In this document: positions 18,154 through 54,627 of the stretch, one piece after another
Layout: each line of letters opens with the position of its first letter
How positions within the stretch are numbered: the first letter of the stretch is position 1
Made by a program: the position numbers and the translations under genes
NCBI RefSeq assembly: GCF_002750975.1
Contig: NZ_PEJS01000001.1
Coordinates: 620,001 to 684,000 of the forward strand
Origin: Stenotrophomonas indicatrix
GTDB taxonomy: Bacteria > Pseudomonadota > Gammaproteobacteria > Xanthomonadales > Xanthomonadaceae
Reading direction: 5' to 3'
Length of the DNA stretch: 64,000 nucleotides
The notes under the pieces: model-generated
Seen by the model: only the letters and a program-made list of their open reading frames with translations
Databases searched by the model: none
What the model was told of the DNA's origin: nothing

Positions 18154-18349
18154 GGTGGAACCCTCACTGGCATAGGGCCACCTTCCAAAGAGAAGGTGGC
18201 GGACGGTGCGGGTTGGCGTGCCAAGGCAGAAAAGCTCACTGGGAGAAAAGGCCTGGCGGATCTTGCGATCCCCACACACCGCCCGCCATTGAAGGCAGTC
18301 GGTGCATTCTCATTGCTGCGATAGAAATCGCAGCATCCAGTGAGCCTGT
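18154..18349 (-). ncRNA. Structured leader RNA, copy A
   Basis: In transcript order: hairpin I (18335-18314, TGCTGCGAT/ATCGCAGCA), arm 1 of a long-range stem (18287-18277, GGCGGGCGGTG), hairpin II GGATC-GCAA-GATCC (18271-18258), a conserved block CGCCAACCCGCA (18218-18207), arm 2 CACCGTCCGCC (18208-18198) and hairpin III GCCACCTTC/GAAGGTGGC (18200-18177; shares three bases with arm 2), then the ribosome-binding site and the ATG at 18153. A related copy lies at 54311-54503 with the same layout, an identical 12-base block and a compensatory change in the long-range stem. Function unknown; riboregulator, attenuator or processed small RNA are all possible. Confidence 0.65.
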
Positions 18350-18355
18350 TCGTTT

Positions 18356-18384
18356 ATTCGAGACGCCAATCCCGGCCAAGGCAA
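18356..18384 (-). promoter_or_regulatory. Predicted promoter of leader copy A
   Basis: On the minus strand TTGCCT (18384-18379), 17 bases and TCGAAT (18361-18356) form a plausible sigma-70 promoter with a start near 18349. The segment GGGATTGGCGTC just before the -10 box is also present before copy B at 54287-54298, so upstream sequence is conserved too. Confidence 0.55.
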
Positions 18385-18713
18385 CCTGCCTCGGCCCGGC
18401 GATCATCGAGTCGAACAATCACACTGGTCTGTAAGGAAATTTCGCAACTGCACCCGGGCGTACCGCGAGTTCCCCGATCTGTGCGGGACAGCACCCGCAC
18501 GCCGTGCAGCGCATCACTGATGGCGTCATTCACCGACCGCGCTGACCCTGCGCCTGGCGTCACCCTGCATGCACGAACGTGGCGATCACGTCACTCCGCG
18601 CGGCGCATGCCATCGATGGAAGCAGAGGGTTCCATCCATGCGCTGTCCCGCCGCCCTCGGCGGGCGTAATCTCGGCCCATTGCCGCGTCCCCTCCCATCC
18701 CTGGAGTGCCACC
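18385..18713. other. Intergenic region before the tautomerase gene
   Basis: No supported gene. It contains two hairpins, GATGGAA/TTCCATC (18615-18636) and CCCGCCG-CCCT-CGGCGGG (18647-18664), just upstream of the tautomerase gene. Its promoter presumably lies here but no clear -35/-10 pair stands out. Confidence 0.5.
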
Positions 18714-19158: not shown

Positions 19159-19180
19159 TCCACGCATGGCGTGGATCTAC
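19159..19180. repeat. SMAG palindromic repeat overlapping the gpD stop codon
   Basis: TCCACGCATGGCGTGGATCTAC in the same orientation as the copy 53 bases upstream. On the minus strand its GTAG end supplies the TAG stop of the tailocin gpD gene (TAG at 19179-19177). The pair marks the left edge of the tailocin locus. Confidence 0.85.
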
Positions 19181-20250
19181 ACTTCGCTGCCCACCTGCGG
19201 GGTCTGCTTGACCGCTGCGCTGCTGGCCGCCTTCACCGATTCGGCGCTGTTGGGTTGCTCGCATTCGATGCTGGTGCGATAGCCGTCGCTGCCGATGCTG
19301 TGTTCGGCGCGCTTGACCAGCCACTCGCCATCCACGCCATCGCGAAAGCCCTGCATGATCACCGTGGCCTCGGCCATCAGCGTCTCGCGGCCTGGAAGGC
19401 TGTAGCTCAGCGTACGCGTCTGCCGCGCCTGCTCGCGGTGCTTGGCGCGCGCTGCGGCTTCGGCGGTTTCGCGGTCGGCATAGGCCATGCGCAGGCGCAC
19501 GATCGGTTCGCCGCTGCCCACCTTCACCTCCTGGCGCTGCGCGCCACGCACATCGCGGTAGTAGGCGATGGTGGTGCCGGCATCGTCGCGGGCGGCGATG
19601 GTGACGCGGTAGCTGCTGCCATCGGCCGGCGTGAGGGTCACCTCCGGAATGCGCTCGCCACTGGCGGTGGTCGATTCGCCACGTTTGACCAGCATCAGCC
19701 GGCCGCCGCCCGGTTTGGCGATGGCGTCGTGCTGTTTGGCCAAGCGCAGCAGCAGGTTCATGTCCGACTCCTGCGATTGCACCGTCAGCGGCAGCACGAT
19801 GGATGCCAGCGACGCACTTACCGCAGCGATCAGGCCGTGTTCGGCGGCCATCCGCTTGACCATGTCGCCAATCGTCGTGCCTTTTTTCCACGTGCGCGTT
19901 TTCTGCGTCTGCAGATCGTTCTTGCCGCCTTTGCTGGTTTCAAACGGCGCGGCACGTGCGCGCAGAGTCATGCTGCCGGGGTAGCCTGAAATCTCCACCT
20001 CGTCGCAGACGTACAGGCCCATGCGCCGCACTTCGCCGTCGTAGCCGATGAAGGCCTCCAGCTCCGCGCCCACCGGTGGCAGCTGGATCGGATCGTTCGG
20101 ATCGTGGTCGGCCAACTGCAGCTCCAACGTGTCCGAGCTGTTGCCGGTCTCGTCGGTGATGCGCAGTGACTTGAAGCGCGACATGATCTTGTCGGTGATG
20201 TCCTGGCTGTTGGCCACCACGCGGAACGCAGGTGCGATGTTCAATCCCAT
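19177..20250 (-). CDS. Phage late control protein D (baseplate hub, gpD)
   Basis: A 357-residue P2 gpD-like protein, homologous in fold to VgrG/gp27 hubs. The DITDKIMSRFKSLRITDETG start, the 80-110 region with YDGEVRRMGLYVCDEVEISG, and the C-terminal ending are typical. It forms the central hub under the spike gpV. Last gene of the tail operon; its start overlaps gpX by 10 bases. The TAG stop lies inside a SMAG repeat, so the natural C terminus may have been altered by that repeat. Confidence 0.9.
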   Translation of the reverse strand: MGLNIAPAFRVVANSQDITDKIMSRFKSLRITDETGNSSDTLELQLADHDPNDPIQLPPVGAELEAFIGYDGEVRRMGLYVCDEVEISGYPGSMTLRARAAPFETSKGGKNDLQTQKTRTWKKGTTIGDMVKRMAAEHGLIAAVSASLASIVLPLTVQSQESDMNLLLRLAKQHDAIAKPGGGRLMLVKRGESTTASGERIPEVTLTPADGSSYRVTIAARDDAGTTIAYYRDVRGAQRQEVKVGSGEPIVRLRMAYADRETAEAAARAKHREQARQTRTLSYSLPGRETLMAEATVIMQGFRDGVDGEWLVKRAEHSIGSDGYRTSIECEQPNSAESVKAASSAAVKQTPQVGSEV

Positions 20251-20456
20251 AGCGATACTCCCTTGCGTTCCTTGGCGGGGCGCTGCACGTCCGGCAGGAC
20301 AATCGCCACGCCGGCAGTGAGCACCGGGCCGCGCGCGGCCAGGCCGGGGTTGGCATCGAACACCGCGCGCAGGATCGCCGGCGATTGCTCGCCATAGTGC
20401 GCGTAGGCAACGCGGTCGACGACATCGCCATCGCGGGTGTTATACGTTCGTGCCAT
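20241..20456 (-). CDS. Tail protein X (LysM-like, gpX)
   Basis: A 71-residue protein MARTYNTRDGDVVDRVAYAHYG..., the P2 gpX family with a LysM-like fold (YNTRDGDVVDRVA and VLTAGVAIVLPD). It attaches tail completion parts to the tube/hub. It overlaps gpU by 17 bases and gpD by 10. Confidence 0.9.
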   Translation of the reverse strand: MARTYNTRDGDVVDRVAYAHYGEQSPAILRAVFDANPGLAARGPVLTAGVAIVLPDVQRPAKERKGVSLWD

Positions 20457-20907
20457 CGCTGTGCTTCCGGAGAGTGAGTGTGAAGTCCTGCTTCTGGATC
20501 TGGCTGTCGACGGTGAATTCGCTGGAGGTGACGTCGATTTTCTCGATGACCCACAGACCCAGGTTGCCGCCCTTGCCGGTCAGCAGACGCTGCGGTTTTC
20601 CCTGGCTGGCCAGCTTGCGCAGTTGCGACATCTCGTTGCCGGCGCCACGGAACAGCGGGTAGACAACGCCTGGCAGTGTCATTGTGGCCGAGCCCGGGCC
20701 GGTGTACTGCAGTGCAGGCATCTGCCCGACGCGATCCTGGGCCTGCCAGCGGAAATCGTTGGACTGCTGGATCTGCTGGAACACGGCCGTGTTGAAGCTG
20801 AACTTGAAGCCGCCCAGCATCAGCAGCACCGGCGCGTTGCCGGAATCATTGCCCTTGAATTGCGACAGCAGCTTGTCCACTGCGCCGGTTACGAACTCGC
20901 GCTTCAT
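20440..20907 (-). CDS. Phage tail protein U (gpU)
   Basis: A 155-residue gpU-family protein with the family-typical stretch VLLMLGGFKFSFNTAVFQQI and the RLLTGKGGNLGLWVIEKID segment. In P2 gpU is a tail tube terminator that stops sheath/tube growth. Located between the tape measure and gpX as in P2. Confidence 0.9.
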   Translation of the reverse strand: MKREFVTGAVDKLLSQFKGNDSGNAPVLLMLGGFKFSFNTAVFQQIQQSNDFRWQAQDRVGQMPALQYTGPGSATMTLPGVVYPLFRGAGNEMSQLRKLASQGKPQRLLTGKGGNLGLWVIEKIDVTSSEFTVDSQIQKQDFTLTLRKHSDGTNV

Positions 20908-20909
20908 GC

Positions 20910-23351
20910 TTAGTTCCTGTCTCCCAGGGTGGCGCGGGCCTGCACGGCCTGCTGGTGCTGCAGGGCGTTGGCGGTACGCCGTGCCAGCGCCTCGCTGGAT
21001 TCACCCGGTTGCTGGTGGATGGTGATGTTGTTGGTCTGTTGCTGCTGCACCGTGGTGGGGGTGCGTGCGGTGGCAGACGAGGGCATCGGCGGTGCGGCGC
21101 GGCCTTGGGACGGCGCAGGCAATCCAGGTGCGCGGCGGTCCACGACGGCGCTGTGCAATCCGCCCACGGCAAGACGCACGGGTGGCATCGCGACCTTGCC
21201 ATCCCTCACGGCGGCGTAGCCGGCGGCTGCGCCGTCGGCCATACCCACTGCCATACGCGCACCATCCACTGCTTTATCTTTGGCCATGCCCAGGGCGCTA
21301 CCGACCTTGTCCATCACCCCGCCGACGAAGTTCATCAGCGGAGCCAGCTCGGCCATGATGTAGCCGATCGCCGCCGTTGCCTTTTCGGAGATCCAATCCC
21401 ATACGCCGCCCAACGTGACGGAGATGAATCCAGCGACCGTGCCGATGACATCACCGAGGAGGGAGATGGCTTCAACCACAACCCCGACCACCTGGATGAC
21501 CAGACGGAAGTTGGCCAGCAACGCCGTGCCCACCAGCGAGCCGATCTCCGCTACGCGCGAGAGTTCGTTGCCGGTGTACTGCGCGGGAGCCAGCATCTTG
21601 GAAAGCCAGTCCCATGCCTGGCCCAGCAGCCCGCCGACTGCTTCCCATGCCGGGCGCAGCGGCTCGACGGCGCGCATCAGTTCGCCCATGGCGGCGGTTC
21701 CTGCGCCGCTGAGGCCATCCCAGACGCCGCCGAGGAAGGCCTTGATCGGCTCCCAGTACTTGCGCACCAGCAGGGCGCCAGCGGTGATGGCGGCGATGGC
21801 GATGGCGATCGGACCGCCGCCGATGGCACCAACGGCGGTGGCGACCACGCGGAACCCCGATGCCAGGCGCATTGCCGTCGGACCGAACTGCCCCATCTGC
21901 GCCAGCAGGCTGCCGCCGCGGAACAGCTCGAAGGCCTTCTGCACCGCCAGGATCGGGCCCTGCAGGAACGTCCACGCATAGCGCACGCCGAGTACTGCAG
22001 TGCGCATGCCCATCAGGCCGACCACGACCTGGGTGGTATTGGCGATCAGCTTCGGGTTTTCCTGCACGAACGACGCAACCCCGTTCAGCAGTTCGGTCAG
22101 CTTCACCGCCGCCTCACCCACGGCCGGCAGCAGCGCGGCACCGAAGGCCTTGGACAGGTTGTCGACGGCGATCTTCGCGCCTTCGATCTTTTCCGGGTCG
22201 GTCTGCAGCTTGGCCGCAAAGCCGCTGTCGGTGGTGCCCGCCGAGCTGTTGAGCGCCTTGTCGCGGATGCGGATGTACTCATCCCAGTTCTGGATCATCG
22301 GACGCACGAAGTTCTGCGCCTGTGCATCGCCGAACAGCTTGCCGATCTTCGCCTGGTCACCGGCAGTGGCCTGGATGATCGCCTGCATCGCCGCGTCGAA
22401 CGGGTTGCCACCGCTGCTCTGCGCTTCGCTGATGATCCTGCGCAGGTCCAGCTTGAAGCCCTTCTTGGCGCGTGCCTGCAGGTCGGGCGAGAGGATGCTG
22501 GCCATGAAGCGCTGCATGTTGCCGGCCGCTTCGTCGGCTCCACCGGCGCCTTGCCGGGCGACATCCAGCGCAGCGCCCATGGTGGCGGCGGCGGCGTTGC
22601 CGTGCATCTGCAGCGACTGGAATGCGTTGCCGAGCACCGGCAGTGCACCGGCCATGTCCTTCAGGCCCAGGCCACCGTTCCTGCCTGCCACCACCAGCAC
22701 ATCAAGCGCCGATTGCAGGCCGGCCGGATTGATCTTCAGTGCCTGCTGCAGTCCCGATGCGGCCAACGTGACATCGTCGATGCTCTCGCCGGTAGCGGTG
22801 GTGGTGCGGCCGATTGCACCCAGGCTGGACTGCGCGGTCTGCGCATCCAGGCCTGCGGCGACCAGCTGGCTGACTGCGCGCTGCAGCTCGCCCGCGCCCT
22901 GGTGGGTGCGGCTGGATTCGGCAAGGATGGTCTGGCCCAGCGCAGCGACCTGGGCGCGGGTCAGGTTGGCGGCGTTGCCGATGGCCTGATTCTCGCGCGC
23001 GAAGCCGGCGGCATTCTCCACCGGTTTGGCCAGCGTGGTGATGGCGCTGCCGAGCATGCCGCGCGCATCGCCAAACGCCGAGCCCAGCTTTTCGCGCTTC
23101 TCAAGATTCGCCGTGCGCTTGTCTTCGATCCGCTGCAACGCTTCCTGGGAAGCGCGCAACGCATCGGCCTCGGCACGCATGCGGGCGAACTGGTTGCTCG
23201 ATCTGCCCATGACATTGAGCTTGCGCTCGAGCTTGTCGGCTTCATCGCCGAGGCGCTTCAGGCCATCGTTGCTGAAGGACAGTGCGTCCTGCAACGATCG
23301 GGAAACCGAGCCACCAATCGTGATCGTTGTCGTTTGAACGTTACTCGCCAT
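20910..23351 (-). CDS. Tail tape measure protein (gpT)
   Basis: An 813-residue protein with an N-terminal coiled-coil region (about residues 25-85, EADKLERKLNVMGRSSNQFA and following), a phage-related minor tail domain, three or more hydrophobic Gly/Ala-rich stretches (about 465-545 and 640-690) and a Gln-rich C terminus (TVQQQQTNNITIHQQ). Its length sets tail length. It follows E/E' with an 11-base overlap, the P2 arrangement. Confidence 0.92.
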   Translation of the reverse strand: MASNVQTTTITIGGSVSRSLQDALSFSNDGLKRLGDEADKLERKLNVMGRSSNQFARMRAEADALRASQEALQRIEDKRTANLEKREKLGSAFGDARGMLGSAITTLAKPVENAAGFARENQAIGNAANLTRAQVAALGQTILAESSRTHQGAGELQRAVSQLVAAGLDAQTAQSSLGAIGRTTTATGESIDDVTLAASGLQQALKINPAGLQSALDVLVVAGRNGGLGLKDMAGALPVLGNAFQSLQMHGNAAAATMGAALDVARQGAGGADEAAGNMQRFMASILSPDLQARAKKGFKLDLRRIISEAQSSGGNPFDAAMQAIIQATAGDQAKIGKLFGDAQAQNFVRPMIQNWDEYIRIRDKALNSSAGTTDSGFAAKLQTDPEKIEGAKIAVDNLSKAFGAALLPAVGEAAVKLTELLNGVASFVQENPKLIANTTQVVVGLMGMRTAVLGVRYAWTFLQGPILAVQKAFELFRGGSLLAQMGQFGPTAMRLASGFRVVATAVGAIGGGPIAIAIAAITAGALLVRKYWEPIKAFLGGVWDGLSGAGTAAMGELMRAVEPLRPAWEAVGGLLGQAWDWLSKMLAPAQYTGNELSRVAEIGSLVGTALLANFRLVIQVVGVVVEAISLLGDVIGTVAGFISVTLGGVWDWISEKATAAIGYIMAELAPLMNFVGGVMDKVGSALGMAKDKAVDGARMAVGMADGAAAGYAAVRDGKVAMPPVRLAVGGLHSAVVDRRAPGLPAPSQGRAAPPMPSSATARTPTTVQQQQTNNITIHQQPGESSEALARRTANALQHQQAVQARATLGDRN

Positions 23352-23762
23352 GTACCGGCAATCCCTGTATCCACCAGATGAATTTCGACACCCGCAGCGT
23401 CATGATCTCGCGCAGGCCCCAGCCGGTATGGCCGGCCAGGGCGAGCGCTCCCTGCCTGATCTGCGGCAGGGTCAGGTGGTAAAAAGCGCGACGCCGGCCT
23501 GCAGGCGGGCGTAGTCGCGCAGCGGCATCCTGCGCACGTCATCCGGTGCGATCTCGCACAGGTTGGCGATCATGCGCACCTCGCGCTGGGCGTCGGTGCC
23601 CTTGTCGTCCTGGTAGCGCTCCATGTCTTCCACGGTCGGTTCGCGCATGCGCAGCACGGCGGTGTCCACGCCATTGACCTGGCGCGGGCGGGAGAGGGTG
23701 ATTTCGGCATAGCCGTCGCGTTCGATGACGGTGTCGGTGGTGGTCTTGGTCTTGCTGGACAT
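23341..23762 (-). CDS. Tail assembly chaperone E and -1 frameshift product E+E'
   Basis: Frame 0 from ATG 23762 gives E, 96 residues, stop at 23474-23472. A run of five T on the minus strand (23485-23481) lies just before the stop. A -1 slip there reads TTT TAC CAC CTG and continues FYHLTLPQIRQGAL...WWIQGLPVHGE to a TAA at 23343-23341, giving about 140 residues. Phage P2 makes its E and E+E' assembly chaperones by the same -1 shift with nearly the same lengths (91 and 142). The extension overlaps the tape-measure start by 11 bases. The slip is inferred from the open -1 frame and T-run. Confidence 0.85.
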
Positions 23763-23801
23763 GGATGTGTTCCCGGATGTCGATGGAGTTGCGGTGGATC
23801 C

Positions 23802-23820
23802 GGGGGCGCTGTGCGCCCCC
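23802..23820 (-). promoter_or_regulatory. Intercistronic hairpin between tube and E genes
   Basis: GGGGGCGC, loop TGT, GCGCCCCC form a perfect 8-bp stem in the 83-bp gap between the tube gene and E. There is no T-run on the minus strand, so it probably protects the abundant tube/sheath mRNA end or dampens read-through to E. Confidence 0.5.
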
Positions 23821-23845
23821 GTGTACGTCGAAGTGGTGCCGGGAA

Positions 23846-24349
23846 TCAGATGCCCAGGGCGCCGCGGATGCCGGCCAGTGCGTCCACGCCGCCCTGGCGG
23901 GCGATCATGTTGGTCACGTCGATCTCCTGCACGACCTGCACGCCATGGGTCAGCTTGTAGTAGCTCAGCGCCAGGGAGACCTTGACCGTGCCCTTCTCGC
24001 CGACCTTGGTTTCGCCGCGGTCGAGGGTCTTCACCTTGCCGCGCATGTTGTGCACGACCGAAGTGACCGCGCCATCGTCGGCTTCCAGCGCCTCGCGGGC
24101 GGTGAAGCCATACTCCTTGCTCTCGATGACGTGGAACTTGGACATGATTTCCGCGTCATCGGAGGCGAAGGTGACCTCGGCGGTCAGCTTGTCGTGGCCG
24201 AGCACGATCTCCGTCGGGGCGAGCATGCCGCCGGCCTGGAAGTCCTCGGTCTTCAGCGACAGCTTGGGGGCAGTGAAGGACATTACGCTGCCGGCAAAAC
24301 CCTTGCCGTCGACGTAAAAGTTGAAGTTCTTGCGGATCTTGCGCGCCAT
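23846..24349 (-). CDS. Major tail tube protein (gpFII)
   Basis: A 167-residue P2 FII-family protein: start MARKIRKNFNFYVDGKGFAG, core KLSLKTEDFQAGGMLAPTEI and a C-terminal ALSYYKLTHGVQVVQEIDV. It forms the inner tube of the contractile tail. It sits 2 bases after the sheath gene. Confidence 0.93.
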   Translation of the reverse strand: MARKIRKNFNFYVDGKGFAGSVMSFTAPKLSLKTEDFQAGGMLAPTEIVLGHDKLTAEVTFASDDAEIMSKFHVIESKEYGFTAREALEADDGAVTSVVHNMRGKVKTLDRGETKVGEKGTVKVSLALSYYKLTHGVQVVQEIDVTNMIARQGGVDALAGIRGALGI

Positions 24350-24351
24350 GC

Positions 24352-25554
24352 TTAGAAGATCTCCGAGACGTAATTGTTGTTCATGTGCATGCGGAAGGTC
24401 AGCTGCTCACCCGGGTAGGTCGGGGTGAAGTCGAAGTCCCAGTAGAAGCGGCCATCGGCCACGCTGTCGGCTGCGTTCAGTTCCGGGTCGATCCAGCAGT
24501 TGCCGCCCAGGATCGCGCCCTGCGTCTTCAGGCCGCGCAGGAAGGCGTTGACACCCTCGCGCACGTCATCGACGTAGGTCTTGCTGATGCCGCGGTCGAC
24601 GGCCCACAGGTGGGCAGCCTCCAGGCTGTCGGCGATGATGTCGGCGGTGCGCACCACGCACAGGAACTGCCACTTCGGATCGATGCTGGCGGTGCGGTTA
24701 CCCCACAGGCGGAAGCCACCTTCGCGGATGATGGTCGCCACGTTGGCCTGGTTCAGCAGGTTGGCGCGGCTGGTCGCATCGGACAGGCCGAAGTCGATCG
24801 CACGCGCAGTGCCGACGATGCCGTACAGCTCCTGGTTGGACGGCGATGCCCACCAGCCGCGTTCGTTGTCGCTGCGGGCGATGGCACCGGCCACCGCACC
24901 GGAGGCGTAACGGCTGACGATCGCTTCACCCTGCTGCACCAGCACGGCCGGATCGACCACGTAGACACGCTTGGAACCGGTCAGTGCGGTGGTGGTCTTG
25001 GCTGCATCGTCGTTGCTGTTCGGGCCATCCTTGATGATGATCGCGCGCAGCTTGTCGGCGATGCCGAGCAGCTCGGCCACGACCGGGTTGGCCAGAACAG
25101 TGTCCGGACTGGCTGGATCAGCCGGGTGCAGGTGGGTGAAGCCCGGGGCGACCAGGATGCGCGGCTTCACGCCGACGATGGACTTGGCAGCCAGCAGTGC
25201 ATGCACGCCGGAGTACGCGCCGGTCTGTGCGTTCACGCCGCCGAGCACGTTGGCCAGGGTAGCGCTTTCGTTGGCGCCGTTCTCGACGCGGATCACCACC
25301 ACGACCGCCGACGACTGGTCGAAGATTGCGTCCAGCGCGCCGGGCAGGGTGCCGGCTTCGGTGCCGGTCTTGGCCGACAGTTTGGCGGCCTGCGAGGGCG
25401 AGGTCACCAGGACAGGCGTGTTGATGGGGAAAGCGTCGGCGTCGGCCAGCGGCGCAGTGCCGACGATGCCGATGACGCTGGTGGATGCAACAGCGATCGA
25501 GCGCGCACCGGTGTCGATGTTGACGACCTGTACGCCGTGGAGAAATTCGGTCAT
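24352..25554 (-). CDS. Tail sheath protein (gpFI)
   Basis: A 400-residue sheath protein from the ATG at 25554 (MTEFLHGVQVVNIDTG). The open frame continues upstream to 25788, but that part is not family-like. It has the sheath signatures DQSSAVVVVIRV, SVIGIVGTAP, NRTASIDPKWQFLCVVRTAD and the C-terminal FTPTYPGEQLTFRM. Contraction drives the tube through the target envelope. Confidence 0.94.
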   Translation of the reverse strand: MTEFLHGVQVVNIDTGARSIAVASTSVIGIVGTAPLADADAFPINTPVLVTSPSQAAKLSAKTGTEAGTLPGALDAIFDQSSAVVVVIRVENGANESATLANVLGGVNAQTGAYSGVHALLAAKSIVGVKPRILVAPGFTHLHPADPASPDTVLANPVVAELLGIADKLRAIIIKDGPNSNDDAAKTTTALTGSKRVYVVDPAVLVQQGEAIVSRYASGAVAGAIARSDNERGWWASPSNQELYGIVGTARAIDFGLSDATSRANLLNQANVATIIREGGFRLWGNRTASIDPKWQFLCVVRTADIIADSLEAAHLWAVDRGISKTYVDDVREGVNAFLRGLKTQGAILGGNCWIDPELNAADSVADGRFYWDFDFTPTYPGEQLTFRMHMNNNYVSEIF

Positions 25555-25660
25555 TCGGAGAGGTTCCTCGGTGTGGTGGTGTGCCTGCAGATGCAGGCGA
25601 CGTGTATATCTTCGGAAAAGGCGACGACGGCGATAATTGCAGCGGTGGCCCAGTGATCGA

Positions 25661-26320
25661 TCAGACCCAGCCGGAGGCGCTGACGCTGGCGCTGAAGCTG
25701 GAGACCTGCGGGTTGCCGCCGGCACGACGCAGGTGAACGTTGATGCTGGTAGAGGCACTTTCAAAGCTGGTGGACCTGGCGGGCACACTGACGGATACGC
25801 CTGCCGATTGCGTCGATGCCAGCGAGGCGAACGACGGTGCGCTGTTGCTGAAGTACGCCGCGCCCTGGTTGCTCACGCTGAACTGCACGTCGTACTCGGA
25901 CACACTGGCGCCGGCCGGAAGCCAGCGGCCGGAGGCAACCACGGTGTTGCTGTTGTTTCCGCCGCCGGTAACACTTCGACGGATGCTGTAGTTGCCATCG
26001 GACAGCATGTCGATCGAGACCGATGCCGACGCTGATCCGGTCGAGTTGGTCTTGGCGCTGTTGCCTGCCGAATAACCCTGGCCATGGAATGGCAGGCGAT
26101 AGCTGGCGCTGCCACGCGCCGCCCACAGGTTCGATACGTCCATGCCGCCAATGCGATAACCCACGTCACCACGTTTGCTGCCGTACTGCATGTGGGCGTA
26201 GCGACGGCTGAGGTCGGTGCCGCCCACGCGCAGGCCGGAGTCCTGTGCAACGGGGCCTTCCACGTAAGGATCGAACAGGTCGTCGAAATCAACGCCTGCC
26301 GAGCGATATCCGCTGGCCAT
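25661..26320 (-). CDS. Tail-associated protein at the chaperone position, function unknown
   Basis: A 219-residue protein located between the fibre and the sheath gene, where P2 and R-pyocins encode the fibre chaperone. It does not resemble gpG chaperones. The N terminus repeats a short pattern (YRSAGVDFDDLFDPY, LRVGGTDLSRRYA, YRIGGMDVSNLWAA), and the C-terminal two thirds are Ser/Ala-rich beta-type sequence. Could be a fibre tip, receptor or accessory part of the particle. Its stop is 1 base before the fibre gene. Confidence 0.6.
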   Translation of the reverse strand: MASGYRSAGVDFDDLFDPYVEGPVAQDSGLRVGGTDLSRRYAHMQYGSKRGDVGYRIGGMDVSNLWAARGSASYRLPFHGQGYSAGNSAKTNSTGSASASVSIDMLSDGNYSIRRSVTGGGNNSNTVVASGRWLPAGASVSEYDVQFSVSNQGAAYFSNSAPSFASLASTQSAGVSVSVPARSTSFESASTSINVHLRRAGGNPQVSSFSASVSASGWV

Positions 26321-26321
26321 G

Positions 26322-28520
26322 TCAGCGCTCCGCCTTCAGTGCGCGCACTTCTGCGGCCAGTTCCTGGATGGCTTTGGCCATGACCGGCAGAAGCTGGTCG
26401 AGCTTGACCGTGGCGACGCGTTCACCGTTGAACTCGATGCCTTCCAGGTCCACAGCTTCGGGTACCAGTTCGGCGAGCTGCTCAGCGACGAAGAACAGGC
26501 GTCGGCGGCCGTCGGAGTTGTACTCCGGTTTGTAATGGCCCGTAGCCAGTTCCATGTGCTCGACGGCGGCCAAGCCATAGGGCACGGAGCCGTCGATAGC
26601 CTTCAGTTTGCGCGAGGAGCCGACATCAAAGCCGCCACCAGCGGTGCAGCTGCCCTTGATCGTGGTGTTGCCCCAGGTCTTATTGATCTGGAACAACCAT
26701 TGGTTGAGACCTTCCTGCCACCAGCCAATGTTGCCGGATGACTGATTGACCACCAGTCGAATCGTCTCTGTGCCCGGCCACTCGTAGCGAATCTGGTTGT
26801 CGATGCCTTGCAGGATCAAGCCGCCGGGAAGTTCCAGGAAAGCGTCATCCCGCAAACGCATCGTCCGCCGATGGTTCGTGCCTGCGCTGGAGTAGAAGAC
26901 GTGGCCGCCAGTTCCGCCACCTTTGAAATTGTAGTACTCCGAGCAGCCGTAGCCGTTCTCGCCGCCATTCTGGTTCCAGGCAATGCGAGTGCCATCCGCG
27001 TTGTGCGGAATATGCAGGCTGGTCGGACGGAACTCGCCAGAGCCGTTCATGGCTGCGCAGATGGAGCCGGTCTTGTTGGCCCATGTGAACGCATCAGCCC
27101 GCATACGCATATGCGCGTCCGGGTTCTGCGAGTTGTTCAGGCGCGCATCCATGTAGACCACATCCGGTCCCGTGCCGATCCAGCCGTTGGCATTGCTGCC
27201 GTTCTTCAACCACAGTTCGGTAGTCGTCAGAGAGCCGGACATCACGTCGCCACCCTTGCTCACCTTCGCCGCCGGGTCGAAGTTGCCGCTCGTCCAGATC
27301 GATCCGCCTGCATTCAACGTGGTGGTATAGCCACCCGCCGAGTTGGCGAAGGTGAAGTTCGGGCCGTTCTTGAAAAGGTACGAACTGGCGTCGCCCAGGA
27401 CCAACACGCCATCATTGGCGACACCACCCCAGCCATACGAGCGCAGCGAGTTTCCGTTTACTGCGACGTGGCCGGTGAACGTACCCCCGGTCTTGTCCAC
27501 TTTGGTGTCCGGCGCAAAGTTGCCGGCATGCCACATTGCAGAGCCATTCCAGCGCGGGGTATCGCCGTGCTTGATGGTCAACTCACCGTTCGCAGTGCGG
27601 TCGGTGTTGTAGACGCGCCAGATGCCAGAGTTGGCCCAGCCACCGATAAACGACTGTTCCGCGCCGGCCGAGCCGAAGCCAACCAGGGGGGCGCTACCGC
27701 CGACAAACTGCTGATCGGTGAAACTATTGGTTCCCTTGACCGCCTTGGCATCCAACACTCCCTGCAGCCCGGTCACATCCGCGATGACATGCTTGTGGCC
27801 GACAGTAGCGAAGTCACCCGCCAGGGCGAACGCGGATGCGTGCTTGCCATCCAGGGTATCGGCATCCAAGCCGTTGCCATGGCCAGTGTCCTTCAGTGCG
27901 GCGCCCTTCAGCTCCAACGCGGTGCGTGCGGCGGCCGTGGTTGCGGCAGACAGCAGGGTCCTGGCCAGTGCAGTGGGCGCGGCCGCGCCAAAGCGCTTGT
28001 CGGTGAATGCACGCAGGCCGCGCGGAGTCACCGCGCGCTGGGTGTCAGCCGCGTCTTCCGCTTCGGTGTTGGTGGCCAGCTCGACCACACCCAGAACCTC
28101 GGTCGTTGCCGGCGGGTAGATGAACTCGGCGTTGCCGAACTGGATCTGCGTGATGTCCACGTCAGTGAAACGCGCATCGGTGGCCAGCAGCAGCATCGAC
28201 GCAGCCGATTTTTCCATGATCGGATCGGTCTGGCCGTAAGTGGCGAACAGCGTGCCGTCAGCCAGGTACAGGCCGAATCCGCGCAGCGAATAGGCGGTGG
28301 CACTGTCGTCGCGGATGGTCACGTGCAGCGTGTCATCGCCCACGGCCTGGCCGCCGAAGGTCGCGACCCGCTTGATCTCGCCTGGCAGCGCAGTCAGGTC
28401 GCCCGAAGGTGCGAATGCCGTGGACGTCAGGCCGATCTGGGTGATCAGAACGGCATTGGTGCCGGTGTTCGGCGGATTGACCAGCTTGGCGAAGCCGGCG
28501 TCGGTGATTTTCAAGCGCAT
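26322..28520 (-). CDS. Tail fibre protein with C-terminal S74 chaperone domain
   Basis: A 732-residue fibre. The N terminus (about 1-170) is the P2-type phage-tail-collar attachment region starting MRLKITDAGFAKLVNPPN. The middle has repeated shaft segments (GNGLDADTLDGKHASAFA, SGNFDPAAKVSKGGD, WHAGNFAPDTKVDKTGG). The end, about 630-732, has GGGFDVGSSRKLKAIDG and a coiled coil MAKAIQELAAEVRALKAE, typical of the peptidase S74 intramolecular chaperone, which in other fibres self-cleaves at a Ser. It probably determines target range. No separate gpG-type chaperone gene is seen. Confidence 0.82.
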   Translation of the reverse strand: MRLKITDAGFAKLVNPPNTGTNAVLITQIGLTSTAFAPSGDLTALPGEIKRVATFGGQAVGDDTLHVTIRDDSATAYSLRGFGLYLADGTLFATYGQTDPIMEKSAASMLLLATDARFTDVDITQIQFGNAEFIYPPATTEVLGVVELATNTEAEDAADTQRAVTPRGLRAFTDKRFGAAAPTALARTLLSAATTAAARTALELKGAALKDTGHGNGLDADTLDGKHASAFALAGDFATVGHKHVIADVTGLQGVLDAKAVKGTNSFTDQQFVGGSAPLVGFGSAGAEQSFIGGWANSGIWRVYNTDRTANGELTIKHGDTPRWNGSAMWHAGNFAPDTKVDKTGGTFTGHVAVNGNSLRSYGWGGVANDGVLVLGDASSYLFKNGPNFTFANSAGGYTTTLNAGGSIWTSGNFDPAAKVSKGGDVMSGSLTTTELWLKNGSNANGWIGTGPDVVYMDARLNNSQNPDAHMRMRADAFTWANKTGSICAAMNGSGEFRPTSLHIPHNADGTRIAWNQNGGENGYGCSEYYNFKGGGTGGHVFYSSAGTNHRRTMRLRDDAFLELPGGLILQGIDNQIRYEWPGTETIRLVVNQSSGNIGWWQEGLNQWLFQINKTWGNTTIKGSCTAGGGFDVGSSRKLKAIDGSVPYGLAAVEHMELATGHYKPEYNSDGRRRLFFVAEQLAELVPEAVDLEGIEFNGERVATVKLDQLLPVMAKAIQELAAEVRALKAER

Positions 28521-28527
28521 GCGGGGT

Positions 28528-29307
28528 TTACTCTCCGATCAGTTGGATGCGGCGGAAGGCCGTGGCGTGTGCGGCTGCAAGCGCGCCGATTGCTGCGTCG
28601 GCCTGCATGCCCTGGGTGAAGGTGAAGTGCGATCGCACCGGCTTGGTGCGGGTGATCTCGCCGATGACGTCGTCGACTAAGATGGCGGTGGCCGACGTGC
28701 CGCCCTGGTTGGCGATGGTCATCACCGCTTCGAAGGTGTGCGGTGGTCCCTTCGGTTGCAGCTGCCACCACTCGCGGATCAGTACAGAACCACCGAACGC
28801 AGCAACCACATCGCGGACGCTGCCCGCCGTGCCCTTGCGGCGCTGGATGGCGATCGCCGCACGCACGCGGGCGCGTTTGACCGGTTCGGGCCAGTACGCC
28901 TTCCATTCGTCCACCGAGAGCGCCCATGCCAGCCAGGGCAGCAATGCGGCCGGACAGCGATCGGCATCCCACAGCGCGGTGATGTCCACCGGCAGCGGGC
29001 GGGCAATGATCGCCTGCGACAATGCACGCTCGGCCTGGGTGGCATTGGGCGGCAGCAGGTTGGCTGAGGCCGGCACCCGGACCTGTGCGTCGCCGTCGAT
29101 GATCACGCCAGGGGCAGGCGCGGTTGCGAGCGTAATCACGCCACCGCTGATGGAAACATCGTCCACGCGCAGGCGCCCCTGCGCATCCGTGCGATATACC
29201 GCCTGCACCGTTGCCAGCATACCGCCGGGATGGCGGAATACCTGGTTCTTCCCATCAACCGCGCCACGCAGACGCGCATTGACCAGGCGCGTGGTGACCT
29301 CACTCAT
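28528..29307 (-). CDS. Baseplate protein I (gpI)
   Basis: A 259-residue gpI-family protein: LPWLAWALSVDEWKAYWPE and the KGTAGSVRDVVAAFGG motifs are typical. An N-terminal extension of about 80 residues precedes the gpI core. In-frame ATGs at 29319 and 29307; GGTGGC upstream favours 29307. It overlaps the end of gpJ. Confidence 0.88.
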   Translation of the reverse strand: MSEVTTRLVNARLRGAVDGKNQVFRHPGGMLATVQAVYRTDAQGRLRVDDVSISGGVITLATAPAPGVIIDGDAQVRVPASANLLPPNATQAERALSQAIIARPLPVDITALWDADRCPAALLPWLAWALSVDEWKAYWPEPVKRARVRAAIAIQRRKGTAGSVRDVVAAFGGSVLIREWWQLQPKGPPHTFEAVMTIANQGGTSATAILVDDVIGEITRTKPVRSHFTFTQGMQADAAIGALAAAHATAFRRIQLIGE

Positions 29308-30196
29308 CGTTGCCACCATGCGCCAGCGTGACGGCGGTGCAGTACGTGGCCTGGGTGCGGTCCACCACCACGTCCGCGGCGGGACTGTCGATCACCACGC
29401 GTTGTACGCCTTCGGCATGCAGTGCTGCGAACAACCCGGAGCGGGTCACGTCCCGGCCGAGCCGATGCGATTCGACGATGTAGCGGTCCAGGCGCGTGCG
29501 CGCTTCGGCCAGCACGACCTGCGAGTCGGGTCCAGCGAAGGTGTACAGCGTAGCGGCGACGGCGTACTTGATGACTGTCGCCGGTTTTACCAGCACGTGA
29601 TCGGTCAACGGGCGCACGTCATCCGCGCTCAGCTTCGCCTCCACCACATCGAGCAGGCCCTGGGTGGCGGTGCCGTCGGCTTCACGCGACAGCACCGACA
29701 CCACCACTTCGCCAGGCGTGCTGCTGGTGGCGCTGGCGTCCAGCACGCGCGGATCCGCGCTCAGCGCATGGAACACATAGGCACCTTCCGGTCCTGCCAC
29801 GCTGAAGCCTTCCGGCCCGAGCTGGATGCGGCGACGGAAGTCCTCGTCGTTCTCGTAGCGGGGAAGGATGCCTTCCTGTGGCTTGCCCGGATCGAGCACC
29901 AGGCGTGTGATGCCGAAGATTGCCGCCAGCTGATCCAGGTCGCTGCCCACCGCATAGGCGAGCATGACACCGCGCGCGGCATCGTTGACGCGCTGGCGGT
30001 CGAGCAGGCGCAGGTAAGTGCAGACTTCGAGGATCTTGAAGGCGGGGTCCGACGGCAGCAGCGCGTCGAACGTGGGGTCCAGGGCCTGCAATGCCGTCAG
30101 CGACTCATCGAACATGGCTTCGAAATCGAGCACTTCGATGACCGCCGGGGCCGGCAGCTGGGAGAGATTGACACTGGTGAACGAGCCGGATGCCAC
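29300..30196 (-). CDS. Baseplate wedge protein J (gpJ)
   Basis: A 298-residue gpJ-family protein (DUF/Baseplate_J) with LDQLAAIFGITRLVL, LPRYENDEDFRRRIQLGPEGFSVAGPEGAY and a repeated EARTRLDRYIVESHRLGRDV region. I chose the GTG at 30196 (VASGSFTSVNLSQLPAP) because it starts 2 bases after gpW and has GAGG upstream; the in-frame ORF starts earlier, inside gpW. Confidence 0.9.
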   Translation of the reverse strand: MASGSFTSVNLSQLPAPAVIEVLDFEAMFDESLTALQALDPTFDALLPSDPAFKILEVCTYLRLLDRQRVNDAARGVMLAYAVGSDLDQLAAIFGITRLVLDPGKPQEGILPRYENDEDFRRRIQLGPEGFSVAGPEGAYVFHALSADPRVLDASATSSTPGEVVVSVLSREADGTATQGLLDVVEAKLSADDVRPLTDHVLVKPATVIKYAVAATLYTFAGPDSQVVLAEARTRLDRYIVESHRLGRDVTRSGLFAALHAEGVQRVVIDSPAADVVVDRTQATYCTAVTLAHGGNDE

Positions 30197-30198
30197 GG

Positions 30199-30537
30199 TT
30201 AGCGAACCTCGATTCCTTCGATGGTGATGGCCTCGCCATCGGGCAGGTGGATCCCGGTTACTGCCAGGATCATCACGCCGGGGGCGGGGAGGGAGACGTC
30301 GACGTTCTCGACGTGAAGCCGCGGTTCCCATCGCGCGAGTGCGTCGACGGTGGCCGCGATCAGGTCCATGCGCAGCGAGCGGTTGGTCGGCGCATCGATC
30401 AGTTCGAAGATGCGCGAGCCGTACTCGCGACGCAGGACGCGGGAGCCAAGGGGTGTGGTGAGAACGTCACGCACGGACTGGTGCAGATGGGCCAGCCCAT
30501 CTAGGGATTTGCCGGTGTTGGCGTCGATTCCTCGCAT
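30199..30537 (-). CDS. Baseplate wedge protein W (gpW/gp25)
   Basis: A 112-residue gp25-like protein with RVLRREYGSRIFELIDAP and the C-terminal VTGIHLPDGEAITIEGIEV. It forms the first ring of the baseplate wedge with gpJ. Confidence 0.92.
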   Translation of the reverse strand: MRGIDANTGKSLDGLAHLHQSVRDVLTTPLGSRVLRREYGSRIFELIDAPTNRSLRMDLIAATVDALARWEPRLHVENVDVSLPAPGVMILAVTGIHLPDGEAITIEGIEVR

Positions 30538-30589
30538 GGTCTCTATCGTCGTGGAGTACGGGTTTTCAGGGCATTGCAGCGATGGCCCA

Positions 30590-31180
30590 TCACGGCTGTG
30601 CAGGCGTGGTGGGTGCGGTCGGGCCCTGGGCGGTGTGTTTGTGCGACTTCAGGCTGATGGCGCCGGCTTTGACGTCGGCCGATGTGCTGATGTCCTTGCC
30701 CGCTGTGATCGCACCGGTGACGTCCAGATCGCCGGTGGCCTTGACCGCCGGCGTGTCGAGCAACACCGATTCGCTGGCATGCACTTCTGCGTTTGCGCAG
30801 TTGACGATGACCTTGCCGCTGCCGACGGTGATGGTCAGCGTGGTGGTTTGGCGGTCGTACTCGACGAGGCTGCCGTCGGCGTACTGCGTGCGCTGCAGCT
30901 GGCGTGTATCGGCCGGTGCGGGAAAGCGATCCTGGTACAGGCTGCCGAGCACCAGGGCCTGGCCGGGGTCGCCATACGGGCATGCCAGCACCACCTGTTC
31001 ACCGGGCTCCGGCGCGCACCAGCTGCGCACGCCGGGTCCCGCGCGGCGTTCCAGCCAGGGAATCCAATCGGTGAGCATGCCGTCAGCATCGACGCGCACG
31101 CGGCCGCCGGCTTCATCAAGTTCGCGCACGACGCCGATCATCAACAGGTTGCCGATCAGCCGGGCGTGTTCGGCGCTCAT
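30590..31180 (-). CDS. Baseplate spike protein V (gpV)
   Basis: A 196-residue gpV protein with an N-terminal OB-fold region (about 1-90), a beta-helix segment rich in TITVGSGK and NCANAEVHASE, and a C-terminal SHKHTAQG. The HxH motif is the metal-binding apex signature of contractile-tail spikes, suggesting an iron-tipped piercing needle. It overlaps the previous gene by 4 bases. Confidence 0.92.
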   Translation of the reverse strand: MSAEHARLIGNLLMIGVVRELDEAGGRVRVDADGMLTDWIPWLERRAGPGVRSWCAPEPGEQVVLACPYGDPGQALVLGSLYQDRFPAPADTRQLQRTQYADGSLVEYDRQTTTLTITVGSGKVIVNCANAEVHASESVLLDTPAVKATGDLDVTGAITAGKDISTSADVKAGAISLKSHKHTAQGPTAPTTPAQP

Positions 31181-31731
31181 GGCGTGTCCTCCGCGAGCGG
31201 CTGGTAGCGCCGCTCATGGGCCCGGCCGATCTCCGGTGCGAAGCTGTAGGACGCGTGCGGTACCACGCCATCGCCGTCCTCCCAGGCATTGCCGCCCAGC
31301 ACGATGGGCACTGACCATTCCACGATCCACGTGCGCAGGTCGGGCTGCGCCGCTGCGGCATCCTCTGGAAGCGCTGCGATTACCTCGATCGCGCCACTGG
31401 GCGCACCGGGAAAGCGGCCGAGCTGATGCAGCCAGGTGGCGAGGTTTACAGCGATCCGGCGCAGCTGCAGGGCAGAATCGGCTGCCGCGGACTGCACGGA
31501 GATGCGTGCTTCAAAGCGCAGCACGGCCTGCAGTTGGCCGCTGCCATCATCGCTGTCCTTGCCGCGATCACAGCGGGTCATCGCCAGCAGGCAGGCGGGC
31601 GTGGGTGGCGCACCACTGTTGGCGTCGCGATAGAACTCGACGGTGGCGAAGTCCGCAAAGCGTGTTCGGATCGCCGCTTCGATGGCGGCGTGCAGCGCGT
31701 CGAAGGTGGAGGAAGGGGTATCGGTTGCCAT
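31177..31731 (-). CDS. Tail-associated hypothetical protein upstream of gpV
   Basis: A 184-residue protein at the position that in P2 holds tail completion genes R/S. Its beta-rich pattern (ARISVQSAAADSALQLRRIAVN, TWIVEWSVPIVLGG) suits a structural tail part, but I cannot name its family. R-type pyocin clusters have a gene of unknown role at a comparable place. 4-base overlap with gpV. Confidence 0.65.
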   Translation of the reverse strand: MATDTPSSTFDALHAAIEAAIRTRFADFATVEFYRDANSGAPPTPACLLAMTRCDRGKDSDDGSGQLQAVLRFEARISVQSAAADSALQLRRIAVNLATWLHQLGRFPGAPSGAIEVIAALPEDAAAAQPDLRTWIVEWSVPIVLGGNAWEDGDGVVPHASYSFAPEIGRAHERRYQPLAEDTP

Positions 31732-31850
31732 GTCAGCTCATGCGATGAATGGAAGGAAGAACGCGACTGGCCGCAGCACGCGCTTTCTGCAAGCAGTGTT
31801 GCCATTGCCCGGGGCGCGGGACATTGCACGCGTGGCCGTGACTGGCCCGC

Positions 31851-32198
31851 TCAGTGCTCGTGTGGGCCGCGATGTCTGGTGTTGCCCGCGGGGATGCAAC
31901 CGGCAGGCGTCAGCGGTGCTGCACCATTGATGGTGAAGCCGTGCTGGCTGCCGAGGCTGCACAGCAGGGCGCGCATCTGGTCGGCCAGTTCGTGGTATTG
32001 GCGCGCCACGGCAACGTGGTTGCGCAGCAGCGCGTCGTCGTCGGCAGCCTGCAGATCGGGCAGTTCCTGCGGCGCGCGCAGTTGTGCCGGTGCAATGCTG
32101 AGGTCAGGGATGAAGAGGGCGGCCGGCATTGGCTTCGCGCCAGATGCGCACGAACTCAGCATCAGCATCGCCGCGGTCGCGGCCAGGGTTCTTGGCAT
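31851..32198 (-). CDS. Outer-membrane spanin lipoprotein (Rz1-like)
   Basis: From the ATG at 32198, within the Rz gene and in another frame, the 115-residue product begins MPRTLAATAAMLMLSSCAS, a lipoprotein signal with lipobox LSSC. The overlapped Rz/Rz1 arrangement is typical of two-component spanins. It is longer than many Rz1 proteins and lacks the usual Pro-rich middle, so the assignment rests on position and lipobox. Confidence 0.7.
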   Translation of the reverse strand: MPRTLAATAAMLMLSSCASGAKPMPAALFIPDLSIAPAQLRAPQELPDLQAADDDALLRNHVAVARQYHELADQMRALLCSLGSQHGFTINGAAPLTPAGCIPAGNTRHRGPHEH

Positions 32199-32478
32199 GG
32201 GTGTCGATGTCCTGTTGCAGGGTGATGAACTGCTGGGTCCGCCCGGACTGCATGGCCAGGCGCTGTGATTCAGCCTGTGCACCGGCCTGTGCGTTGGTGT
32301 GGTCCTGCTGGCGCGCGACGAGCGCGGTGTCGGCACGACCGGTCTCCTGCGCGGCCTGTAAGCGCATGGCGGCGAGATCCGCGTTGCGGTCGCGCAACTC
32401 CCAGCCCAGCCAGGTGCAACAGGCGTGGCTGGCAACCAGGCCCAGCAGGGCGATGCGCAACCTCAGCGGTATCGGCAT
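32104..32478 (-). CDS. Inner-membrane spanin (Rz-like)
   Basis: A 124-residue protein from ATG 32478, with one N-terminal membrane segment (RIALLGLVASHACCTWLGW) followed by a charged, Gln-rich predicted coiled coil (QAAQETGRADTALVARQQD). It pairs with the outer lipoprotein gene nested in its 3' part. It starts at the last base of the endolysin gene. Confidence 0.78.
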   Translation of the reverse strand: MPIPLRLRIALLGLVASHACCTWLGWELRDRNADLAAMRLQAAQETGRADTALVARQQDHTNAQAGAQAESQRLAMQSGRTQQFITLQQDIDTHAKNPGRDRGDADAEFVRIWREANAGRPLHP

Positions 32479-32963
32479 CACTGCAGGAGCCCGCCAGCGG
32501 CGCGATAGGCGGCGCGCAGCGTTTCCAGCGCATGTTCCTTCTGCCCGTAGCCGGCGCCCGGCAGCGACGCCCAGATGCGCCGGGCGGCGGCGACAGCAGC
32601 ATCGAATCGGCCCAGGCGGATCAGATCGTAGGCGCCGCATTGCCTGAGCAGCGCCACCGCCGCGCGGTCCTGCGAGACCGGGCCGAAGTCCGGCAGGTCC
32701 AGGCGTGCACGCAGGTCGTCCCAGGTGCTGCGCAGGAACTGGTAGCGGCCGGCGGCGCTGGACTTGATGCCGTAGCGCGGCAGCGACACCAGAACGCGTG
32801 GATGGTCGCGATGGTCATTGAACAGCTGGCCGCCGACGATCACGTCGTAACCACGATTGCGGGAGCGCTGGGTGGGAATGTCGGTGCCTTCGGATACGGC
32901 CAGCATGTCCAGGAACGCGGCCACGTTGGCGCCGCCGAGGGCGCTCGCTGCGGCGGCGGTCAT
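32478..32963 (-). CDS. Endolysin, lambda R-type lytic transglycosylase
   Basis: A 161-residue enzyme closely resembling lambda R: FLDMLAVSEGTD with the catalytic Glu, NRGYDVIVGGQLF, DHPR, KSSAAGRYQFL and IWASLPGAGYGQKEHA. It cleaves peptidoglycan for release of particles. No signal sequence, so it needs the holin. It overlaps the holin by 4 bases. Confidence 0.93.
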   Translation of the reverse strand: MTAAAASALGGANVAAFLDMLAVSEGTDIPTQRSRNRGYDVIVGGQLFNDHRDHPRVLVSLPRYGIKSSAAGRYQFLRSTWDDLRARLDLPDFGPVSQDRAAVALLRQCGAYDLIRLGRFDAAVAAARRIWASLPGAGYGQKEHALETLRAAYRAAGGLLQ

Positions 32964-33756: not shown

Positions 33757-33784
33757 TGGTATCCACTGTTGCCATCCCGTCGAT

Positions 33785-33812
33785 CACGTCAACACCTTTC
33801 ATCTACTTTCAG
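33785..33812 (-). promoter_or_regulatory. Tailocin promoter element, Box 1 (late operon)
   Basis: On the minus strand TGAAAG-TAGA-TGAAAG-GTGTTGAC: two TGAAAG half-sites 10 bp apart run into a -35-like TTGACG (33792-33787). It shares 23 of 24 bases with Box 2. The -10 region is weak, which fits an activator-dependent late promoter. It precedes the Mor-family gene. Confidence 0.6.
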
Positions 33813-34045: not shown

Positions 34046-34075
34046 CGAAAAAGCCCCGGACGGTGCCGGGGCTTC
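34046..34075 (-). terminator. Intrinsic terminator of the early tailocin unit
   Basis: On the minus strand AAGCCCCGG, loop, CCGGGGCTT followed by TTTC; the plus strand shows GAAAAAGCCCCGGACGGTGCCGGGGCTTC. It lies 22 bases after the gene ending at 34097 and cuts the early genes off from the late operon. Confidence 0.85.
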
Positions 34076-34096
34076 AGGACTGCAGGTGGTGCTGGG

Positions 34097-54086: not shown

Positions 54087-54627
54087 TTGCCAGCTGAGCA
54101 TCTGTGCTGCGTGCAGTGGTGCGACGCTGATCGGCGTCGTGCATGCCTGCGGAGTGTGACTCGTCCTGCAGTTCTGCCCTTGGAAATCGCACCTGCGGCA
54201 AGCCTGAGGCGCGGGCGCGGACAACCCCTACATACCGCCTCGGCGACAGCACTCAGCATGCCCCCGTCGGCCATCATCGGCCGGCTGGGATTGGCGTCCC
54301 ATAATCAACTCTGGCACGTGATCGGCAGGCGCACGGATGGCGCCTGCGGATCTCGTGACCTGCTGTCCGTGGTGGGCGATGTGTGGGGATCACAATGATC
54401 CGCCGGTCAGTCCCAGAGTTGTCCTGTACGCCAACCCGCATCGCCCGCCGCCTGTTCGTGGTCAGCCACGAATGCGCTGATGGCGCTTGCCTCGGGGGTG
54501 GCAATGCGCGTCGTGCATGGGGAGCGGCGGCGGGCGGTGCATCTGCGCACCTGCGTAACGTGTGGCCAGCACGCCAGCAATGGGGTGCTGGCTGTGCTGC
54601 TGCGGCGGTCGTTGGCCGTTGCCGTGC
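54087..54627. other. Intergenic region between convergent LysR and TonB genes
   Basis: 540 bases without a convincing gene on either strand. It holds leader RNA copy B (54311-54503) and its upstream block. A 46-codon ORF at 54504-54644 follows the leader but overlaps the TonB stop and has no family. Confidence 0.6.
54311..54503 (+). ncRNA. Structured leader RNA, copy B (possible orphan small RNA)
   Basis: Same order as copy A: hairpin I GCAGGCGC/GCGCCTGC (54325-54347), arm 1 GGTGGGCGATG (54371-54381), hairpin II GGATC-ACAAT-GATCC (54387-54401), block CGCCAACCCGCA (54429-54440, identical to copy A), arm 2 CATCGCCCGCC (54439-54449), hairpin III TTCGTGG/CCACGAA (54455-54472), then GGGGGTGG and ATG at 54504. 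Arm 1 and arm 2 remain fully paired with one compensatory change relative to copy A (G-C to A-T) and two wobble changes. -10-like CATAAT lies at 54299-54304. No sizeable gene follows; it may act alone or be a relic. Confidence 0.6.

Follow-up and report, generated by a model that had tools for sequence, protein, structure and literature searches.

A 64,000-nucleotide stretch of the Stenotrophomonas indicatrix genome (hereafter the window; contig NZ_PEJS01000001.1, positions 620,001 to 684,000) contains two regions, minus 18349-18154 (copy A) and plus 54311-54503 (copy B), that a sequence-only reading had taken for two copies of one structured leader RNA. What kind of RNA do they encode, and on what does it act? 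The shared layout is present in both regions, as is the 12-base identical block ACGCCAACCCGCA. That reading knew of no described function, and on this point it was wrong because the leader belongs to the C4 antisense RNA family (RF01695) of phages P1 and P7, a kind of RNA that is already known and is akin to the CI RNA of phage P4.

A C4 RNA is expected to be cut by RNase P to a stable RNA of about 77 nt. In P1 and P7, as described in the passages cited here, RNase P cuts the C4 RNA, which acts through two segments, a′ and b′, and b′ covers a ribosome-binding site (PMC5320573). In P4, the CI RNA is processed from a transcript and pairs with seqA upstream and seqC downstream, which leads to termination; the same passages describe IsrK as a structural homologue of P4 seqA, with a stable RNA following it (PMC4825925). 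The locus of IsrK/STnc1160, in the Salmonella prophage Gifsy-1, is described as affecting an antiterminator (PMC12197685).

At gathering score, an Rfam scan of the whole window yielded a tRNA and one C4 antisense RNA, copy A (51.0 bits for a gathering score of 45, E 7.3e-7). Copy B matches RF01695 over its full length at 40.5 bits, under the gathering score of 45 (E 2.3e-6, 501 bases searched). Both matches are far better than chance would give; copy A is a C4 RNA, a phage-type regulatory RNA, and copy B appears to be one. The parts described earlier map onto the model: the closing stem is P1, the small GGATC hairpin is P2, and the identical block is made up of b′ and the start of the second stem arm. 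The upstream identity reported with them, GGGATTGGCGTC, is there too; rather than a mere continuation of the leader, it is the antisense target, with loop b and box a (Table 1). Two related models gave scores below gathering, RF03163 (c4-a1b1; 15.1 bits for copy A and 16.2 bits for copy B, gathering 46.7) and RF01394 (isrK; 23.2 and 13.6 bits, gathering 50). Leader A matches isrK, which belongs to a prophage locus, weakly. The copy A target hairpin occupies the loop position of these two sub-gathering matches. Other leader classes were dropped after the C4 model had matched.

Table 1. Features of the two C4 loci, in window coordinates.
Feature	Position	Strand	Basis
Copy A, 5′ hairpin of the leader, just 5′ of the target	18374..18396	-	leader fold
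Copy A, target hairpin (GGGATTGGCGTC); b box loop TTGGCG at 18369-18364	18359..18374	-	7 unbroken pairs with b′
Copy A, target a box GGCTCACTGG	18337..18346	-	contiguous a′ pairing including G-U, score 10.6
Copy A, hairpin I, between target and C4; no T run after it	18314..18335	-	leader fold
Copy A, C4 antisense RNA (RF01695), 51.0 bits	18192..18293	-	covariance model
Copy A, P2, small GGATC hairpin	18258..18271	-	RF01695 match
Copy A, a′ segment CCAGTGAGCT	18233..18242	-	pairing with a box
Copy A, b′ segment ACGCCAA, within the identical block	18213..18219	-	RF01695 match and pairing
Copy A, hairpin III, overlapping the last C4 closing-stem bases	18177..18200	-	complementarity
Copy A, small-protein family gene, 142 aa	17725..18153	-	family profile
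Copy B, target hairpin TGGGA-TTGGCG-TCCCA (b box)	54286..54301	+	pairing
Copy B, target a box CAACTCTGG	54306..54314	+	9 pairs with a′
Copy B, C4-type RNA, 40.5 bits (gathering 45)	54365..54455	+	covariance model
Copy B, a′ segment CCAGAGTTG	54413..54421	+	pairing with a box
Copy B, b′ segment ACGCCAA; no family gene behind	54428..54434	+	pairing

Over 250 nt, leader A folds 6.9 standard deviations below shuffled sequences. In its minimum-energy fold, which is unlike the layout first described, a is bound to a′ and b to b′ inside the transcript. Promoter and terminator scans at copy A gave no match. On the minus strand, window positions 19177-38222 hold P2-like tail genes (GpD, GpU, tape measure, tube, sheath, baseplate J, tail I) with a VapE-type primase and no capsid gene among the proteins scanned; the cluster may be a tailocin or a reduced prophage. 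GpD was also seen upstream, within 1.5 kb, at two of the six other aligned A loci (L121 and L130, the latter with only 51 aa).

The genome holds more than the two copies first counted. A search of all of it with RF01695 gave 24 matches at E ≤10, of which 16 are above the cut-off and 19 were judged convincing (L001-L019). L020, a 116-nt long hairpin repeat weakly imitating the model, was judged unrelated by eye; three further matches of the same length were dropped with it by length only, and one more was dropped at E 5.1. Nine of 13 Stenotrophomonas genomes, the source included, carry 10-26 copies each at E ≤1e-5, and the other four have none; the 145 copies of these nine genomes form the set used below. 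Across the class, C4 was found in 24 of 369 genomes, with 1-6 copies per genome outside Stenotrophomonas, under stricter filters and with at most 11 candidates scored per genome. In Pseudoxanthomonas taiwanensis (L195), two copies, each accompanied by a separate isrK match, are separated by about 0.9 kb and lie some 6 kb from a tRNA gene. Viral contigs gave five relatives (L265-L269), each with the family gene described below and C4; the three contigs whose reading frames were inspected all resemble bacterial chromosome by eye and are possibly misfiled. When the L007 locus was compared with the four C4-free genomes, one flank only was matched and no clean empty site was seen.

The larger set bears on the closing stem. 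Its outer 12 pairs are all standard in copies A and B, and the claim that the pairs are kept, with one G-C replaced by A-T, holds; the wobble differences are three (T-A/T-G, C-G/T-G and G-T/G-C) instead of the two reported. A single double change in two sequences is weak evidence of covariation. Further homologues with paired changes, which had been proposed as the check, do exist: over the 145 loci, the varying pair is G-C in 89, G-T in 43 and A-T in 12. Over the 12 outer pairs, 1698 of 1740 cells are standard, vs. at most 1676 in 1000 arm shuffles, a comparison in which relatedness is uncontrolled. Covariation and conservation thus support the view that this is a functional structured leader RNA. 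Around the stem, a 5′ hairpin of at least five pairs precedes the target at 108 of 145 loci (26 of 145 when shuffled), and the end of C4 is complementary to the next 44 nt, that is hairpin III, at 142 of 145 (33 of 145 when shuffled). Since hairpin III of copy A uses the final closing-stem bases, it and the C4 stem partly exclude each other.

In both window copies, the target lies about 65-80 nt before C4 in the order hairpin loop b, then box a, with a′ preceding b′ inside C4. The pairings are TTGGCGT to ACGCCAA and GGCTCACTGG to CCAGTGAGCT for copy A, and CAACTCTGG to CCAGAGTTG for copy B. This complementarity is largely private to each locus. The mean pairing energy in the source genome is -44.8 kcal/mol with the own leader vs. 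-32.9 kcal/mol with other leaders (permutation p 1e-5). In the anchored comparison across all 145 loci, a/a′ scores 9.11 with the own target vs. 5.17 with others, and the own score is over the 95th percentile at 112 of them; in an unanchored test the observed sum was reached by none of 20000 shuffles. Within its genome, the own leader is strictly the best target at 121 loci by a plus b and at 104 by a alone, the least orthogonal genome being G003 (own leader best in 12 of 20). Eight of the 145 loci have a weak own match (score <6), and 130 of the 145 a′ sequences are distinct. In a co-fold test in the source genome, only 11 of 19 loci had their own target ranked first, with the target window misplaced for at least one locus (L018); for copy A it gave -4.4 for the own leader vs. 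-9.8 for the best foreign one.

The b hairpin was found from structure alone at 89 of 145 loci, with a wrong hairpin in some, and 72 of these 89 have at least five pairs with their own b′ region, vs. 13.5% for loci with a different loop sequence. This structure-based approach yielded 38 loop sequences, 25 of which form 6-9 unbroken pairs with their own b′ region. Selection against cross-talk is unsupported, because cross-complementarity (score ≥8) is no lower within genomes (1.9% of 2438 pairs) than between them (2.0% of 18068).

How do such private pairs evolve? Comparison of flanks placed 96 of the 145 loci in 24 syntenic groups and left 49 single. Among 187 within-group pairs, a′ is identical in 14 and different in 173. 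In these 173, the own pairing exceeds the swapped one 164 times, ties seven times and loses twice, a count over pairs that are not independent and that includes group 21, apparently mis-joined. The comparison indicates that, at syntenic loci of different species, a and a′ have been replaced together. For instance, L041 and L072 are near-identical across the locus, with both a and a′ replaced. At locus A, seven aligned genomes show four a′ versions by eye, that of L126 being one base off the L130 version. The L117 target has lost one base relative to L015, and its a′ is unchanged.

With group 21 left out (186 ortholog pairs), mean identity is 0.51 for a and 0.59 for a′, and reaches 0.81 for the DNA from a to C4, 0.88 for the first part of C4, 0.93 for b′ with the second arm and 0.79 for the downstream gene. 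At fourfold sites of the genes it is 0.66, over the 174 of 186 pairs kept once those of unlike length, with short proteins or below 40% identity were dropped. Since this value averages 0.66, a and a′ appear to turn over about as fast as fourfold sites or somewhat faster, with complementarity kept. The stronger claim that they evolve faster than neutral sites met with mixed results: 0.51 and 0.59 lie below 0.66, yet a wider definition of a′ gives an identity of 0.68, which is under the fourfold value in 83 of 174 pairs.

Most C4 copies precede a gene of one small-protein family. A family match follows C4 at 125 of 145 loci; conversely, 126 of 133 family-profile matches in the nine genomes lie at most 260 nt 3′ of a C4 on the same strand, and seven were without C4 in the 700-840 bases searched. 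The family profile matches nothing in the four C4-free genomes, and profile A1 matches in all nine C4-bearing ones. There is no internal stop in 131 of the 133 matches. The sequence-only reading had seen a hypothetical gene behind one copy and no clear gene behind the other, rightly, since A has a family gene and B has none. Copy B is L019, one of the two of 19 source-genome loci without the gene (the other is L014), and its like loci L129 and L135 also keep C4 and target with the family gene absent, in three genomes altogether. A shorter type of protein (80-82 aa) is found behind C4 at L017, L041, L072, L099, L136 and L144, those of L017 and L099 being weak family-profile matches. At L132 and L133 (G003), the gene that follows C4 differs in its C-terminal half, which may resemble an addiction-module antidote HTH domain.

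The suggestion of a DUF3077-type gene was not borne out: PF11275 is absent at E ≤1 from all 17 downstream proteins of the source genome. A search for DUF3077 genes elsewhere matched in none of 369 genomes but equally in none of 14 controls, and so carries no weight either way. Against Pfam, the best match of these 17 proteins was an unconvincing one at E 0.046; NCBIfam gave no match, nor did a PDB search with downstream proteins. A large protein set contains 444 relatives; those named among the 120 listed are nearly all from Stenotrophomonas, with one from a Pseudomonas MAG and one from Acinetobacter. In the named genomes, a pattern scan with protein A gave 149 pattern matches and no relative, and a DNA pattern scan gave 92 stretches, of which 80 were listed. 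An AlphaFold2 model of the protein is weak (pLDDT 67.9, pTM 0.45); it suggests, with moderate confidence, two long C-terminal helices, and Foldseek found no fold match with it (best E 0.29).

Other lineages are arranged differently. A run of at least five T within 75 nt before C4 occurs at eight of 145 Stenotrophomonas loci vs. 25 of 26 loci of other lineages. Behind C4, a second target scores on average 8.90 for a and 7.43 for b at the 26 loci, vs. 5.76 and 5.70 at the 145, with a′ delimited by slightly different rules in the two sets. The downstream a′ score of the 145 loci is 5.90 with the own region vs. 5.81 with foreign ones, and strong downstream matches for both segments are found at six (L025, L026, L041, L046, L063 and L122), neither window copy among them. 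L025, L026, L046 and L063, four of the eight T-run loci, combine a T run with a second target and lead other genes. C4 is also carried by Xanthomonas phaseoli (L201) and X. cannabis (L184), where, by eye, a T run and a second target stand before a family-resembling protein. By these measures, most Stenotrophomonas loci have neither the T run nor the second target.

The interpretation towards which we lean, by a small balance of probability, is that these loci represent the P4/P1 immunity leader in a chromosomal variant that has multiplied, each being a self-limiting RNA module. A single transcript would contain, in order, the target (loop b, box a), the C4 antisense RNA and the small gene. C4 would be excised from the leader, probably by RNase P at the GG end as in P1/P7, and would accumulate; its a′ and b′ segments would then act in trans, pairing with the a and b boxes that open each later transcript of that locus. 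Such pairing would terminate these transcripts early, as happens in P4; with the T run missing at most loci, a Rho-dependent stop is the more likely one. As C4 would stop further transcripts, C4 and the downstream gene would be held at a low, self-set level, and the differences in a and a′ from locus to locus would leave each of the 10-26 copies per cell largely in control of itself only. The sequences themselves show the C4 identity, the private complementarity, the joint replacement of a and a′, the link to a single gene family and the lack of T run and second target at most loci; transcription, cutting, trans action and repression are inferred. The model also has the precedents of P4 and P1/P7 on its side, as well as the C4 stem predicted at 141 of 145 loci when the target is left out. 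Against it stand the co-fold test, the unreduced cross-complementarity within genomes, the eight weak own matches, the base lost from the L117 target, the negative promoter scan at copy A and the seven family matches without C4.

The strongest rival is a purely cis-acting switch, in which a-a′ and b-b′ pair within one transcript and no antisense RNA acts in trans. The long-range fold would open the C4 stem and free hairpin III, thereby setting the translation or stability of the gene. Predicted folds of the full leader contain the long-range intramolecular pairing at 128 of 145 loci and the C4 stem only at 15, and folds predicted without the target form the C4 closing stem at 141 of 145; the complementarity of the C4 end to hairpin III at 142 loci fits as well. 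With intramolecular pairing so frequent, trans action is not needed to account for the complementarity. However, minimum-energy folding ignores cutting and the order of folding, P1, P2 and the stem ends are near the C4 model, which in the passages cited on P1, P7 and P4 is a trans-acting RNA (PMC5320573; PMC4825925), and a simple stem ought to evolve one pair at a time, not wholesale. Such a switch seems to us unlikely, though a serious contender.

The loci might instead form a defence repertoire, whose C4 RNAs silence incoming phages or satellites with matching a and b boxes, the varied a′ segments marking past or present targets. This would agree with the great diversity of a′, with the phage-type genes that several of the 26 other-lineage loci precede by eye, and with the description of C4 and P4 CI as immunity RNAs in the passages cited (PMC5320573; PMC4825925). 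Pure defence, however, has no need of an a′ that matches the own leader at the same locus, as most do; the 96 loci that share a flanks-based group with another species speak against it as well. With the 271 bases of leader A, blastn, which misses diverged relatives, hit two of 50,697 phage and four of 72,556 plasmid records, over 22-47 bases at E 0.2 or worse, and we regard the defence reading as improbable. Least credible, and already disfavoured, are functionless remnants of prophages or satellites. Copy A does lie about 750-800 nt from the P2-like tail-gene cluster, and two source-genome loci have no family gene, but most loci retain both stem and complementarity despite the turnover of a and a′, the family gene is mostly present and free of internal stops, and copy B keeps target, C4 and pairing though the gene is missing in all three genomes in which a like locus was seen. 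A bolder version of the self-limiting module, which we hold to be rather doubtful, is that a phage immunity switch has turned into about 10-26 largely orthogonal self-silencing modules in which one mutational process repeatedly rewrites a and a′ together, in DNA segments about 100 nt apart, and in which these pairing codes, acting in trans, tell self from non-self among the loci or towards incoming elements.

The C4 RNA family and its occurrence in many copies are already known. In Acinetobacter baumannii, the passages cited describe 21 similar group 1 sRNAs in one genome, C4-like in structure in all but three, which are expressed, apparently processed and varied in a′ (PMC5320573); the targets suggested for them were other RNAs of bacterial or phage origin. 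The Stenotrophomonas loci resemble them in that one genome holds many C4 copies whose a′ varies (PMC5320573), but most of their copies match their own leader, a and a′ change together between species, and they lead one gene family. The likeness to the P4 immunity leader, as the passages cited present it, lies in a seqA-type target upstream of the antisense RNA within a same-transcript layout with genes behind (PMC4825925); unlike P4, most Stenotrophomonas loci have no seqC, the copies are 10-26 and separate on the chromosome, and they lead one protein family. With P1/P7 C4 they have in common the match to RF01695, the a′ and b′ segments, the P1-P2-P3 layout and specificity in a′, whereas at most Stenotrophomonas loci the sole clear target is far upstream and not at the ribosome-binding site behind C4. 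In searches of open-access papers, we found no report of C4 RNAs in Stenotrophomonas or of private self-targets, nor of a/a′ co-replacement or of the small-protein family.

These loci point to an uncharacterised protein family tied to a C4 RNA, and they suggest that a self target is worth seeking for the C4-like sRNAs of A. baumannii. Within single cells they offer numerous naturally occurring antisense-target pairs that share one fold, and their evolution records how pairs have switched. Hence, both the way in which specificity is kept or changed after duplication and the route from a phage immunity RNA to a host regulator become testable.
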